Source: Halobacteriales archaeon YIM A00010
GTDB taxonomy: Archaea; Halobacteriota; Halobacteria; Halobacteriales; Haloarculaceae
Reading direction: 5' to 3'
Assembly: GCA_025041175.1 (NCBI GenBank)
Contig: JAKCFJ010000001.1
Location: 1,674,001-1,738,000 of the forward strand
DNA length: 64,000 bases
Shown: piece by piece, positions 20,950-62,690 of the stretch
Layout of the letters: each line of letters opens with the position of its first letter
Numbering within the stretch: position 1 is the first letter of the stretch
Translations under genes and position numbers: made by a program
The notes under the pieces: generated by a model
Databases searched by the model: none
What the model was told of the DNA's origin: nothing
The model's input: only the letters and a program-made list of their open reading frames with translations

Positions 20950-20960
20950 AACTTTATAAC
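20950..20960 (+). promoter_or_regulatory. promoter of cassette copy A
   Basis: ACTTTATAAC is a good archaeal TATA box. It lies 23-24 nt before the conserved GATAGATGAG block that opens the structured leader, the same spacing as in copy B (CTTTATGTA at 60989-60997). Confidence 0.6.
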
Positions 20961-20976: not shown

Positions 20977-21064
20977 GATAGATGAGAACGCCAGTGGCGC
21001 CCTGGTGGCGTGTGCGTTCGTGTTGAACGCGCCGGGTGTTAGGCCCACCCGACGCTGGGTTCTC
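20977..21064 (+). ncRNA. structured leader RNA, copy A (four-helix junction)
   Basis: Closing helix P1 pairs GAGAAC+CCAG (20984-20994, one bulged G) with CTGG+GTTCTC (21055-21064). Inside are three hairpins. P2 is CGCC/GGCG (20998-21001 with 21007-21010). P3 is GCGTTC-GTGTT-GAACGC (21014-21030). P4 is CGGGTG/CACCCG (21033-21038 with 21046-21051, 7-nt loop). Copy B at 61013-61100 keeps the same four helices with base changes that preserve pairing. It sits between a TATA box and the ATG of the zinc-ribbon gene, so it is a transcribed 5' leader. Function unknown; cis regulation or a mobile-element RNA are possible. Confidence 0.65.
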
Positions 21065-21079
21065 ACGTCAGAGATACCC

Positions 21080-21226
21080 ATGACAGGGAACGAATCAGAG
21101 ACATGTAACGGTGTCGCATCGTATCAGAATGATAACCAGAGAACGCGCTGCCCGGTGTGTGGTCGGCCGGTCCGCACGCGGCTCGACCACCGGATGGGCT
21201 GCCCGCAGGGGCGGTGGTGGCGATGA
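21080..21226 (+). CDS. 48-residue zinc-ribbon-like protein of cassette copy A
   Basis: Starts MTGNESETCNGVASYQNDNQ and contains TRCPVCGRPV and a later Cys in DHRMGCPQGRWWR, a small zinc-ribbon pattern. It follows the structured leader by 15 nt and overlaps the next gene by ATGA. Copy B at 61118 is nearly identical. Function unknown. Confidence 0.75.
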   Translation: MTGNESETCNGVASYQNDNQRTRCPVCGRPVRTRLDHRMGCPQGRWWR

Positions 21227-21780
21227 GTTTGCCGCTGTTCCAGTTCCGGAATCAGCGTGGCGAGGCACTGAACCTCTCGGCCGTCGAGGATCGGGCGGAG
21301 ATCGTGACGGCCGAACTGTACCACAGCATCGATGTGGGTAAGGGATTGTGGTGTAGACCGTGCCAGTCGACGGGCTGTGCGCATGCTATGCAGATCGAGC
21401 AGATACTCGCGACCGCCGGTCTTGGCAGGACCCGGGCGGGTGGCTACGAGGAGTTGCCCGGGATCGCGCGGTTCACACGCTACGCGGCCACCGGCGAGAT
21501 GATCGTCGAATGCTGGTTCGACAACGGGGCCTGTGTGCGCGTTCACGAACAGCGCGATGGCACGGTGGTCCAATCCGTGTTCACACCCGATGATTCGCGC
21601 GAACCGGCCGAGATCACGGAGAAACCCGAGGCGGACACGGCCCCAGCCAGTCTGGTCGACACGCTCGTGGAGTACTGCCAGTATCGACAGCGCGGCGATC
21701 TCGCTGGCTTGCGCCAGCGCTATCCCGAGCTGGCCCGCGTCGTCGGTGCGGCCGCCGCTGCATCCACCACCAACGACTGA
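21223..21780 (+). CDS. SWIM-like zinc-binding protein of cassette copy A
   Basis: Encodes 185 residues. The zinc motif LWCRPCQSTGCAHAMQIEQI (C-x2-C ... C-x-H) resembles SWIM domains, which bind zinc and mediate DNA or protein contacts. Before it is LPLFQFRNQRGEALNLSAVE; after it come FTRYAATGEMIVECWFDNG and the C-terminal tail VEYCQYRQRGDLAGLRQRYP. The start overlaps the upstream zinc-ribbon gene (ATGA), so translation is coupled. Copy B at 61261-61869 is interrupted; tail fragments lie at 12093-12338 and 62059-62160. Repeated occurrence suggests a mobile or duplicating cassette. Confidence 0.8.
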   Translation: MSLPLFQFRNQRGEALNLSAVEDRAEIVTAELYHSIDVGKGLWCRPCQSTGCAHAMQIEQILATAGLGRTRAGGYEELPGIARFTRYAATGEMIVECWFDNGACVRVHEQRDGTVVQSVFTPDDSREPAEITEKPEADTAPASLVDTLVEYCQYRQRGDLAGLRQRYPELARVVGAAAAASTTND

Positions 21781-21781
21781 C

Positions 21782-21941
21782 AGACAACCGTAGCGGAGCG
21801 GAGGCGGTGCAGTAGCGGTGGCGGAGGCGGTATGTGAGTACACCCACCGCGAGCGGGAGCAAGCGAGCGGCTTTTTTTGCCCCATCTTTTTTCCGCTCGG
21901 GTGGCCGGAGGCCCCCCTCGCGCAAAAAAGGTGGCGGGAAG
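21782..21941. repeat. T6/A6 palindromic repeat, copy with inverted core
   Basis: Directly after the cassette come degenerate GTAGCGGAGGCGG units, then GAGCGGC-T7-GCCCCATC-T6-CCGCTCGGGTGGCC-GGA-GGCCCCCCTCGCGC-A6-GGTGGCGG. Compared with the copies at 35772, 60630 and 61870 it runs on the opposite strand, but its central hairpin between T6 and A6 is flipped relative to the flanks. Confidence 0.65.
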
Positions 21942-42116: not shown

Positions 42117-42218
42117 ATGACCACCAACAGTTATTACGTATAGTACACGTATTATTGCACACGATGTCGTCGAATCCGCCGGCGTCCACGACAGGCGAGG
42201 ATAGAGGAAGCCACAGCG

Positions 42219-42689
42219 ATGTGGCTGATCGAGAAATTCTGCGGTACTGAATCGACGCGGTCCACAGCACCACGGCAGGCGAGCGAGTCGGTCGAACGCG
42301 ATGGGGATGCCGTTGTCCTCGAACTCTCGGGGACGACCCACGTTCTGACCCCAGCGCAGGCGCGGGGGCTCCATGCTGCGCTGGATGAGGCGCTGTATCA
42401 CACCGAAACGTTCACTCACACGGTTTGTGAGCACCGGCCGGACGGCTCGTACGTGGTCGCCCGCCGGCGCGCGGAATCGGCGGGCCACCGAAAGGTGTTC
42501 GACTCCTTTGAGGCGCTCGGTGAACTGTACGAACGGCTCCCACCGGAGTTCACCGCCGAAGACGTCGAGTTCCCCGGACTGACGGGGGGACGGCGGCACA
42601 TGCTCGTCCGCCACTTCACCGAGCATCCGGCGTTCGATTGTGCGCTAGATCGTCGACAGCCGCTCACAGCGCGAAAAACCGACTCGTAG
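42219..42689 (+). CDS. conserved haloarchaeal protein (likely DUF7528)
   Basis: Encodes 156 residues. GDAVVLELSGTTHVLTPAQA and LHAALDEALYHTETFTHTVC are followed by SYVVARRRAESAGHRKVFDS and ERLPPEFTAEDVEFPGLTGG. It looks like a small alpha/beta DNA- or RNA-associated protein, but I know no function; the family is probably DUF7528. The N-terminal 15 residues may be over-extended. Confidence 0.7.
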   Translation: MWLIEKFCGTESTRSTAPRQASESVERDGDAVVLELSGTTHVLTPAQARGLHAALDEALYHTETFTHTVCEHRPDGSYVVARRRAESAGHRKVFDSFEALGELYERLPPEFTAEDVEFPGLTGGRRHMLVRHFTEHPAFDCALDRRQPLTARKTDS

Positions 42690-60629: not shown

Positions 60630-60736
60630 CCCCACCTTTTTTCCGTTCGGGTGGCTGCGCTACCCTCACGCAAAAAACGTGGGCGAAAAAAAGCCGCTCG
60701 CGGTGGGTGTACTCACTGCTACCGCGACCGCTCCGC
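60630..60736. repeat. T6/A6 palindromic repeat, copy near the ferredoxin gene
   Basis: CCACC-T6-CCGTTCGGGTGGC-TGC-GCTACCCTCACGC-A6-CGTGGGCG-A7-GCCGCTCGCGGTGGG. Same orientation as the copy at 35772. The centre is again a hairpin with a 3-nt loop. The stretch from 60737 to 60985 has no supportable gene. Confidence 0.65.
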
Positions 60737-60988
60737 ACAGCTTCGACGGACTGACTGGCCGCTGTTCCACGTGGAGATACTTGCTCACCACGGCGCTGTG
60801 GTGCAGGGCCGTTCGGATCGATTCGAGTATTGTCATTACCAACGTGATTGTTGAGAAGAAATTCGCTGCTACCAGCCTGTCTCAGTCGGCAGCAACGCCC
60901 GATACCAGTGATTCGTGGCTATGCTCCGAAGAACTGCTGGAGGTACGAGTTGTTAATAGAATATAACATTGTTCGTTCCATCAGTACC

Positions 60989-60997
60989 TTTATGTAT
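60989..60997 (+). promoter_or_regulatory. promoter of cassette copy B
   Basis: CTTTATGTA lies 23 nt before the conserved GATAGATGAG start of the leader, the same distance as in copy A. Confidence 0.55.
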
Positions 60998-61012
60998 GAT
61001 GGAGTAAGGAAC

Positions 61013-61100
61013 GATAGATGAGGACGCCAGCATGGCGGGAACGCATGCGCGTTCGTGTTGAACGCGCCGGGTGACTCCACCACCCGACGCTGGGGTTCTC
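61013..61100 (+). ncRNA. structured leader RNA, copy B (four-helix junction)
   Basis: P1: GAGGAC+CCAG (61020-61030) with CTGG+GTTCTC (61090-61100), now with a G-T pair and a G-G mismatch in place of the bulge. P2: CAT+GCG-GGAA-CGC+ATG (61031-61047), a GNRA-type loop. P3: CGCGTTC-GTGTT-GAACGCG (61048-61066). P4: CGGGTG-actccac-CACCCG (61068-61086). P3 loop GTGTT and P4 stem are identical to copy A, while P2 and the P4 loop differ in sequence yet keep pairing. Confidence 0.65.
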
Positions 61101-61117
61101 CATGATGAGAGAGTCCC

Positions 61118-61264
61118 ATGACTGGGAATGAATCAGAGATATGTAACGGTGTCGCATCGTATCAGAATGATGAACAGCGCACGCGCTGTCCGGTGTGCGG
61201 TCGCCCGGTCCGCACGCGTCTCGACCATCGTATGGGGTGTCCGTTGGGGCGGTGGTGGCGATGA
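61118..61264 (+). CDS. 48-residue zinc-ribbon-like protein of cassette copy B
   Basis: MTGNESEICNGVASYQNDEQ, then TRCPVCGRPV and DHRMGCPLGRWWR; differs from copy A in only three residues by eye. Intact, with the same ATGA overlap to the broken SWIM-like gene, so it may still be expressed. Confidence 0.75.
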   Translation: MTGNESEICNGVASYQNDEQRTRCPVCGRPVRTRLDHRMGCPLGRWWR

Positions 61265-61869
61265 CGTTGCCGCTGTTCCAGTTTCGGAATCAGCAGGGCG
61301 AGGTACTGAACCTCTCGGCCGTCGAGGATCGGGACGTGGTCTCGAAAGCGGAGCTGTACCACAGCATCGATGTGGGTGAAGGACTCTGGTGTCGCCGAGC
61401 TTCGCTCGGCTGCTAACCAGAAATCTTCGATTTCTGGTGATGTCGGCCGTGCCAGTCGACGGGTTGCGCGCATGCCACCCAGATCGAGCAGATACTGGCG
61501 ACGGCGGGGCTTGGCAGGACCCAAACGGGCGGCTACGACGAACTCCCCGGTATTGCGCGGTTCACGCGCTACGCGGCCACCGGTGAGATGATCGTCGAAT
61601 GCTGGTTCGATAACGGGGCGTGCGTCCGATTCCACGAACAGCGTGATGGTGACGTGATCCAATCCGTGTTCACGCCCGACGACGCACGCGAACCCGCAGA
61701 GATCACCGAGAAACCGGATGCCGACAGCGCGCCCGCCTGTCTGGTCGACACGCTGGTGACCTACTGCCAGTATCGCCAGCGCGGCGATCTCGCTGGGTTA
61801 CGTCAGCGCTACCCCGAGTTGGCGCGCATCGTCGGTGAGACCGCCGCTGCACCGACCACCGACGACTGA
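61261..61869 (+). pseudogene. interrupted SWIM-like gene of cassette copy B
   Basis: Reads MTLPLFQFRNQQGEVLNLSA to LYHSIDVGEGLWCR, then a two-hairpin insertion brings an in-frame TAA at 61414-61416. After the insertion the frame resumes with PCQSTGCAHATQIEQIL and continues to the usual tail TYCQYRQRGDLAGLRQRYPE and stop. The insertion splits the zinc motif between its first two cysteines. Confidence 0.8.
61394..61440. mobile_element. two-hairpin mini-insertion, copy 1
   Basis: GCCGAGC-TTC-GCTCGGC (61394-61410), spacer TGCTAA, then CCAGAAATC-TTC-GATTTCTGG (61417-61437). TGTCG stands on both sides (61390-61394 and 61441-61445), as a 5-bp target duplication would. The net insert is 51 bp compared with copy A of the gene. 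Confidence 0.65.
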
Positions 61870-62057
61870 CGGAACACCGTAGCGGTGCGGTAGCGGAGGC
61901 GGAGCGGTCGCGGTGAGTTAGTACACTCACCGCGAACGCAGAGAGGGACTACGTCCCTCAAGCAGCCGGGCGTAGCCCGGCGACAGTGAGCGGCTTTTTT
62001 GGTCCAGATTTTTTGCGTGAGGGTGAGCTCCGCTCACCCGAGCGGAAAAAAGGTGGG
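61870..62057. repeat. T6/A6 palindromic repeat behind cassette copy B
   Basis: After GTAGCGGTGCGGTAGCGGAGG units and a nested two-hairpin module comes GAGCGGC-T6-GGTCCAGA-T6-GCGTGAGGGTGAGC-TCC-GCTCACCCGAGCGG-A6-GGTGGG. Read on the minus strand it matches the 35772 copy in both flanks and core. Confidence 0.65.
61943..61981. repeat. two-hairpin module, copy 2 (inverted)
   Basis: GAGGGAC-TAC-GTCCCTC (61943-61959), AAGCA, then GCCGGGC-GTA-GCCCGGC (61965-61981). On the minus strand this reads TGTCGCCGGGC ... TGCTT ..., the same order as copy 1 (TGTCGCCGAGC ... TGCTAA ...), with an A-T pair changed to G-C in the first stem. Confidence 0.6.
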
Positions 62058-62058
62058 C

Positions 62059-62160
62059 CAGTACCGACAGCGTGGCGATCTCGCTGGGCTACGGGAGCGC
62101 CACCCCGAACTAGCAGGCGTCGTCGGTGCGGCCGCCGCTGCACACACCACCGACGACTGA
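62059..62160 (+). pseudogene. extra C-terminal tail of the SWIM-like protein
   Basis: QYRQRGDLAGLRERHPELAG and a further 13 residues to a stop repeat the tail of the cassette protein, directly after the palindromic repeat. It has no start codon. So the repeat is sandwiched between two copies of the gene's 3' end. Confidence 0.65.
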
Positions 62161-62690
62161 CGAGAAACCACACCGAGCGGAGCGGTCGCGGTACCGTGAG
62201 TACGCTCACCGCGAGCAGTGTTCCCGCGATCGGCTGCGTTTAATCGCTAGATAGCGTCGGATTGAGCGTCAGAATGATGGTATTGAAACGGGAGAGTGGT
62301 AGCTGTGCAAACAACTATATCCCGCTTCACCGAACGAGCTGTCTGGATTGATAAAAGATTGCCGACATAAGAGGCATCTCACAAAACTAGATCTCTGCTA
62401 CCCACCTGTATCCATATACTATCGAACGTACGGTATGACAGTCCCGTCAGCGTGCACTCGACAGGGATGGATCGGATCCTACGCGTCCACGAGTGCTCTC
62501 TTTCAACAGCTACGTTCGACACTATAGGATGTTAACCAGAAACTCCACGACTAAAGCTGGAGGAATGGAGATGCGGTGTCAACCATCAAACGTCATACAG
62601 GCGAGTCATAGGTACTGCTCAACAATACTCAATTGTAGATAGTACCGACAGAAAACTAATATGATTGGGCAAGGTGAGTAAGGATAAATA
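62161..62690. other. 530-bp region without a supportable gene
   Basis: Begins with GAGCGGTCGCGG-type units of the palindromic repeat (to about 62225), then turns into mixed-composition sequence with no coding frame, tRNA or clear repeat. GC drops towards 62690. Confidence 0.4.

Follow-up and report, generated by a model that had tools for sequence, protein, structure and literature searches.

A multicopy leader RNA of haloarchaeal zinc-finger genes with a hypervariable loop and a putative alternative hairpin at the start codon

Introduction

The closest described counterparts of the RNA reported here are the antisense-controlled leaders of plasmids and type I toxin-antitoxin systems (hok/Sok, pIP501, pMU720/ColIb-P9, R1), in which a structured mRNA leader exposes a short U-turn loop and translation is governed by refolding (PMC6562991, PMC3753616). 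YUNR U-turn loops act in sense-antisense pairing, hok/Sok and pIP501 included (PMC6562991), and the loops of such plasmid and type I antisense systems can be altered to give orthogonal pairs (PMC6562991, PMC3753616). The haloarchaeal leaders resemble these systems in their structured mRNA leader and short U-turn loop and, by inference, in control through refolding; one of them, L094, even carries the 6-base loop TTGGCG common to loop-loop chimeras of plasmid regulators (PMC3753616). Unlike them, the leaders are archaeal, chromosomal as well as plasmid-borne and present in tens of copies per genome; the sequence of the loop-bearing stem (P4) is fixed and no antisense RNA has been shown. Nor are the downstream zinc-finger/SWIM-like proteins known to be toxic, in contrast to type I toxin-antitoxin systems.

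With translational riboswitches the leaders share a closing helix (P1) that competes with a start-codon hairpin. They differ in having no known ligand and in showing their greatest variability in a loop that sits on their most conserved stem. According to a 2021 paper, no archaeal riboswitch other than the fluoride switch of Thermococcus had been determined by experiment (PMC8241225). The leuA-Halobacteria RNA (RF03001) is likewise a haloarchaeal cis-regulatory RNA, but its 53-nt model has another structure and does not match the leaders. As for the gene products, C(P)XCG zinc-finger micro-proteins are studied in Haloferax (PMC6562870, PMC11241148). The leaders precede similar small CPxCG and SWIM-type proteins, although neither of these, ORF1 or ORF2, has a Pfam or NCBIfam match above cut-off.

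Results

Two structured leaders in the analysed window

The window, the whole stretch of 64,000 nucleotides analysed here, comes from a genome of the genus Halocatena (G000, 5.97 Mb in seven contigs, of which C1, at 2.86 Mb, is the main chromosome). An earlier note on this DNA had described two leaders 40 kb apart that share a four-helix fold. Both are present (Table 1), with minimum free energies of -49.1 (copy 1) and -47.9 kcal/mol (copy 2), and both beat dinucleotide shuffles. An A-T to G-T change in P1, a re-paired P2 and an altered P4 loop, which the note had reported between the copies, are all found; the P3 loop GTGTT that it called invariant is common to the two copies but is not kept across the leader family. 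The layout holds as a P1-P4 fold, but P2 is optional, and the note had overlooked hairpin P5 as well as how strongly the P4 loop varies. The window leaders are not chance structures, since they score highly with our second covariance model (R2) and belong to a 92-sequence alignment that covaries far beyond both of its controls. Transcription of the leader is inferred, with a predicted start for copy 1 near 20977-20982.

Table 1. Coordinates of the features of the two leader cassettes in the window
Feature	Coordinates	Strand	Basis or remark
TATA box, copy 1 (TTTATA)	20953..20958	+	sequence; 24 nt upstream of GATAGATGAG
Start of GATAGATGAG	20977 (copy 1); 61013 (copy 2)		
Structured leader RNA, copy 1	20977..21079	+	R2 match 20981-21064, 69.4 bits, E 1.2e-16; fold z -3.62 (dinucleotide shuffles)
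P1 5' strand, copy 1	20983..20996	+	MFE; all 11 modelled P1 pairs covary
P2 (optional helix), copy 1	20997..21011	+	MFE
P3 hairpin, copy 1	21012..21032	+	MFE; double changes at 6/7 pairs
P4 hairpin, copy 1, stem CGGGTG/CACCCG	21033..21051	+	cells 99.6% paired, near-invariant, n=92
Hypervariable P4 loop, copy 1 (TTAGGCC)	21039..21045	+	unique among 32 copies
P1 3' strand, copy 1, used in both P1 and P5	21053..21065	+	
Alternative hairpin P5, copy 1, last base = A of AUG	21056..21080	+	isolated-segment fold; covariation/permutation test
ORF1, copy 1, 48-aa zinc-finger protein (CPVCG...H...GC)	21080..21226	+	translation
ORF2, copy 1, 185-aa SWIM-like protein (WCRPCQSTGCAH)	21223..21780	+	translation; ATGA overlap with ORF1
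Structured leader RNA, copy 2	61013..61117	+	R2 match 61017-61100, 73 bits, E 1.1e-17; fold z -2.80 (dinucleotide shuffles)
P1 5' strand, copy 2	61018..61031	+	centroid fold
P2, copy 2	61035..61044	+	centroid fold
P3, copy 2	61047..61067	+	fold
P4, copy 2	61068..61086	+	fold; loop ACTCCAC at 61074-61080
P1 3' strand, copy 2	61089..61103	+	fold
ORF1, copy 2 (L021), 48 aa	61118..61264	+	ATG at 61118
ORF2, copy 2	61261..61866	+	broken by palindromic insert, stop after codon 51

A family of cassettes in the genome and the genus

The two cassettes are real, but they are not a mere pair as had been thought: by a DNA search of its own assembly the genome has 32 homologous copies, all on C1. Each consists of a TATA-like promoter, the leader, the 48-aa CPxCG ORF1 and an ORF2 of about 185 aa with a Cx2Cx4CxH motif, the two frames overlapping at ATGA. 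The TATA-like box lies at the equivalent position in 32/32 copies, both frames are intact in about three quarters, and P2 is missing from the fold in about a third (e.g. L006, L007, L018, L019, L024, L028-L032). Beyond these the genome has six or more leaders that are weaker or variant, and a looser P4 pattern, with 40 sites in the genome versus 3 for its control, uncovers leaders with other P1 sequences upstream of Cys-rich ORFs. Full cassettes are absent from the remaining ~3.1 Mb of the assembly; variant leaders lie on C4, C5 and C7.

Matches to the ORF2 family were found only within the genus, whose members here include Halocatena pleomorpha, 'Actinarchaeum halophilum' YIM 93972 (for which stranded RNA-seq exists, PMC10067837) and strain YIM A00013. 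Five genomes have ~20-40 matches each and two more have one each, with no match in 52 other sampled genomes. ORF2 identity is ~80% within a genome, far above the 66% or ~50% between genomes, which amounts to concerted evolution. Efficient gene conversion is known from polyploid haloarchaea (PMC11276520).

Several smaller features accompany the cassettes. A ~65-bp palindromic repeat (TTTTTTGCGCGAGGGTGGCC..GGCCACCCGAGCGGAAAAAAGGTGG) lies downstream of most of them in either orientation, and also, inverted, upstream of copy 2 (21865-21935, 60630-60700 and 61990-62060 in the window); it looks like a separate small repeat element. A C-terminal fragment of ORF2 is duplicated after copy 2 (62058-62161), an arrangement also seen at L028. 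In copy 2, a short insert built from small palindromic units (CGAGCTTCGCTCG, CCAGAAATCTTCGATTTCTGG) breaks ORF2 and brings in a stop in frame after codon 51 (61345-61440); L013, L018 and L022 have it too, and several copies carry similar inserts at the identical site. Around the TATA box of most Halocatena promoters is an operator-like inverted repeat, CCATCA...TGATGG (e.g. 60978-61002), the promoter of copy 1 being of a different type. Within ORF1, codons 7-16 (21098-21127 in copy 1; TGTAAC..TGTCGCATCGTATCAG) have near-invariant synonymous sites within and between Halocatena species, which suggests a further, putative nucleic-acid element inside the gene.

Covariation supports the P1-P4 fold

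RNAalifold recovered P1, P3 and P4 from 22 leaders of five Halocatena genomes, with P1 intact in 22/22. A first covariance model (R1) then recovered relatives in other families, chiefly Natrialbaceae (f7; contigs matching Halostagnicola larsenii and Natrinema versiforme) and Haladaptataceae (f17; Haladaptatus). Two alignments were built, one of 85 non-genus or divergent leaders and one of 92 mixed leaders. In the latter, 95.9% of cells were paired versus 80.0% after shuffling, 354 cells were double changes versus 111.3 +/- 9.2, and the covariation score was 0.469 versus 0.176, with 0/500 shuffles as high. Sliding the partner by one column lowered pairing to ~42%, and shifts of 1-3 columns collapsed the structure. 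The 85-leader alignment likewise passed every control.

Both sides of P1 vary at 11/11 pairs and yet 97% of cells remain paired, the sequence shifting from GAGAAC..GUUCUC to GGAAGC..GCUUCC between leaders. Conservation is highest in the P4 stem, CGGGUG/CACCCG, where 5/6 pairs show no more than one exception. Both alignments were fitted to the covariance model and the counts are thus biased towards the structure, but given the size of the effect and the wholesale replacement of P1 sequence we have little doubt, on this comparative evidence, that the P1-P4 structure is genuine. The reading of the two copies as a functional leader RNA, proposed in the earlier note, is accordingly supported by double changes at 11/11 P1 pairs, by both broad alignments and by the failure of any shuffle to match them; function itself remains unproven.

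The P4 loop is hypervariable and follows a U-turn grammar

The least conserved part of the leader sits on its most conserved stem. The 178 P4 loops (111 of 7 nt, 66 of 6 nt and one of 5 nt) comprise 136 distinct sequences, and in five genomes all copies differ (32/32, 23/23, 19/19, 14/14 and 12/12). Single repeats occur in three others (G003, G238 and G134, the last with CTCTAA twice), and Haladaptatus loops also repeat (CTTGCAA twice within 49 kb). Identical loops were fewer within genomes (3/1401) than between them (29/5971), a difference that is not significant (p = 0.26), and selection for loop uniqueness itself is unproven.

The rate of change is most evident in close relatives. Across 25 pairs of leaders with at most 3 differences elsewhere, there were 39 differences in ~2325 nt of flank versus 86 at 170 loop positions, i.e. 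the loop changes ~30-fold faster and is ~50% different where the leaders are elsewhere 98% identical. At orthologous loci of two genomes (G001 and G004) the loop is 47% different, versus ~3% for the flanking leader and ~10% for the upstream 300 nt. The P3 loop and the linkers have no such variability. Neutral drift of an unconstrained loop was considered and rejected, as pairs with replaced P4 loops still conserve the flanking loops and linkers.

The loops nevertheless obey rules. Their first and last bases can form a Watson-Crick pair in 0.7% versus 28.6% expected. A U in second place is combined with a purine in fourth in 48.5% versus 13.1% of shuffled loops (z 13), and YUNR occurs in 33.8% versus 15.0% expected (z 6.4). 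This grammar is a U-turn (UNR) signature, which also marks the recognition loops of several antisense systems (PMC6562991). A tRNA-like reading (7-nt loop, U at 2, R at 6) was also considered; the 6-nt loops and the fixed stem speak against it.

Searches for a pairing partner were negative. P4 loops showed no pairing excess with their own cassette over loops swapped among copies, and they avoid pairing with its post-P1 segment; nor did they pair in excess with any part tested of the genome's other leaders, whether loops, P2/P3, linkers or start regions. A P4 pattern search for hairpins with reverse-complement loops elsewhere in the genome gave the leaders themselves, additional leaders and a handful of sites that are probably due to chance. 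Inspection by eye of the Halocatena loci gave no convincing, consistently placed antisense promoter.

An alternative hairpin reaches the start codon

Besides matching the 5' strand of that helix, the 3' strand of P1 is also complementary to the bases immediately upstream of the AUG, and we refer to the second pairing as P5. Examples, each followed directly by ATG, are GGGTTCTC..GAGATACCC in copy 1, GGCTTTCTC..GAGAGAAGCCA in L137, GCTGTTTC..GAAACAGC in L140, GGTCTTC..GAAGACC in L138 and GGCTTC..GAAGCC in L133; the pairing sequences differ widely among families. The duplex averages -7.73 kcal/mol versus -6.00 +/- 0.16 after exchanging segments between copies, and the effect is seen within Halocatena (-8.03 versus -7.37 +/- 0.13) and within the Natrialbaceae (-7.26 versus -6.93 +/- 0.10), though not in six Haladaptataceae leaders taken alone. 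When the segment is folded in isolation, at least 4 linking pairs form in 165/176 leaders (92/97, 67/73 and 6/6 by group).

The P1-closed form averages 7-13 kcal/mol more stable, so that P1 is expected to form by default, and P5 only once P1 has been opened. The ATG is mostly 12-25 nt downstream of P1. Position directly upstream of an ORF and an alternative structure at the start codon, as expected of a translational leader, are thus both found, and a conserved closing helix that competes with an AUG hairpin is most simply read as a bistable translational switch, the switching itself being inferred.

Two further pairings lie near the start codon. A short one, CCC-AUG...-GGG, is kept around it in most Halocatena copies, the frame of the GGG varying by subfamily. 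Natrialbaceae leaders (e.g. L115, L117, L123) have a covarying hairpin at +19 to +37 after the ATG (CGGGA-TATAAACG-TCCCG / CGAGA-...-TCTCG), the loop of which is often TATA-like and whose compensatory changes alter the peptide.

Distribution across the order

With at most 11 candidates scored per genome, as also in the earlier R1 scan of other families, R2 matched 137/392 genomes of the order and 51/95 genera; a phylum-wide sample of 197 genomes gave no match outside the order. E-values are rough (short calibration). Copies are numerous: in selected genomes that were counted in full, R2 found 37 in the source genome, 31, 28, 28 and 23 in one Natrialbaceae genus, and 29, 26, 19, 18 and 15 elsewhere. 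Searching for the P4 pattern alone, bordered by C and A, gave 30 and 24 sites in two genomes (G114 and G158), and 0 for the reversed control pattern. None of the leaders matches an Rfam 15 family, either at gathering scores or at E<=5, which bears out the claim that no haloarchaeal counterpart had been described. The window does hold a leuA-Halobacteria RNA (RF03001), at 42190-42242 (57.2 bits).

A plasmid of Haladaptatus halobius (L385) and related plasmids have DNA matches to leader plus SWIM gene, in up to 31 places per plasmid; some are annotated as SWIM zinc finger family protein, and many lack an R2-detectable leader. A viral origin, or viral copies, found no support: the pattern had 126 hits in IMG/VR, and the 96 stretches tested gave no credible R1 match (best E 0.07). 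A tblastn search of phage and plasmid records did not find ORF2.

The downstream proteins

A zinc-ribbon/SWIM pair, whose constant presence behind the leader the earlier note had proposed to check, does follow throughout the genus; elsewhere other small Cys-rich ORFs take its place, sometimes with a SWIM gene. Downstream ORFs are mostly Cys-rich, and zinc-finger proteins come after most leaders examined. Although the Cx2Cx4CxH motif is present, Pfam SWIM (PF04434) matched none of 23 ORF2 members; for the ORF behind L137 the score is 17.2, against a cut-off of 19.6. ORF2 has no sequence match in the PDB. A known fold was also sought by structure prediction (AlphaFold mean pLDDT 70), and Foldseek returned nothing from the PDB with E <= 0.001. 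The ORF2 proteins of L092 and L094 are near-identical behind entirely different P4 loops.

Discussion

We lean, with a little more belief than doubt, towards reading the RNA as a cis-acting translational leader of genes for small metal-binding proteins, the P4 loop being a sequence-specific RNA-RNA recognition element that addresses paralogues separately; it is with about the same inclination, and jointly with translational control, that we regard it as a new, order-wide haloarchaeal family. The P1-P4 fold, the complementarity behind P5 and its position at the AUG, the variability and grammar of the loop, and the spread in many copies across the order are observed; transcription, switching, the direction of control and the partner are inferred. 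By default, P1 would close a junction from which P3, P4 and, in many copies, P2 project, with 15-23 nucleotides unpaired and the AUG accessible. Were P1 opened, its freed 3' strand would form P5, a hairpin that reaches the AUG or stops immediately short of it and that should impede initiation; this direction of control, like the switching, is an inference from the observed complementarity. The opening signal would probably be read by P4. A fixed stem with a variable, open, U-turned loop most simply implies sequence-specific contact with another nucleic acid, and a fixed P4 stem presenting 6-7 variable nucleotides would be the usual arrangement for kissing recognition. Since loops differ among the paralogues of a genome, each leader would answer only its own partner; different loops insulate plasmid incompatibility systems from one another. 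The simplest partner would be an antisense RNA from the same locus, as this stays complementary whatever the loop becomes, and a trans-encoded RNA would be the alternative. The cis-antisense RNA is our leading guess and remains a hypothesis, since neither a trusted antisense promoter nor a trans partner was found.

A metabolite or metal riboswitch, with P3/P4 as core aptamer, P1/P5 as expression platform and the P4 loop as a dispensable apical loop, would suit the classical layout of P1/P5, the near-invariant P4 stem and the Cys-rich ORFs, zinc-binding proteins hinting at a ligand. A dispensable loop should, however, evolve near the neutral rate rather than ~30-fold faster than its flanks (47% versus ~10% upstream) and under a strict grammar, and a metabolite riboswitch would not normally be present 28-37 times in one genome; we hold it to be unlikely without dismissing it. 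That the leader is cleaved off as a trans-acting sRNA, the P4 loop being a variable seed against host or mobile-element RNAs that diversifies in an arms race, is decidedly unlikely. A hypervariable U-turn loop on an invariant stem and many different loops per genome are what it predicts, but a pure sRNA would need neither a place directly upstream of an ORF nor a P5 ending at the AUG, a 6-7-nt seed is weak by itself and the candidate viral contigs yielded no leader.

Autoregulation, in which zinc-finger proteins bind their own leader and co-diversify with the P4 loop, draws on the zinc-finger proteins behind most leaders examined; we consider it highly improbable, as the leaders in each of the pairs L092/L094 and L046/L067 are identical in their flanks yet bear wholly different loops, in the first pair ahead of near-identical ORF2 proteins. 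Finally, CGGGTG-N6/7-CACCCG could be read as an inverted-repeat recombination site in DNA, each event giving it a new spacer in the manner of the coupling sequence of a tyrosine recombinase. Near-invariant arms, a fixed-length spacer and wholesale spacer replacement on an unchanged background would all fit, yet P1, P3 and P5 covary as RNA, the flanks of orthologues stay colinear while the loop changes, and the strand-asymmetric U-turn grammar with its avoidance of a closing pair points to an RNA hairpin. The cassette has no recombinase gene either, only ORF1 and ORF2, and this reading is the one to which we give the least credence.

A structured RNA in 137/392 genomes, in up to 37 copies and without an Rfam match, marks a substantial gap in archaeal RNA biology, and the switch geometry and address-like loop raise its interest well beyond the account of the earlier note. 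Leadered haloarchaeal mRNAs are usually without Shine-Dalgarno use, and the P1/P5 arrangement makes their translational control directly testable. A sharp evolutionary question is what rewrites 6-7 nt on an otherwise nearly unchanged background. Tentatively, and with our doubts somewhat the stronger, we propose an order-wide repertoire with tens of addressable leader switches per genome, the loop being rewritten by targeted diversification or by strong diversifying selection. We know of no such chromosomal repertoire of addressable RNA switches in any domain. If the loop is indeed an address, the leaders would amount to a set of orthogonal RNA switches that evolved in nature.
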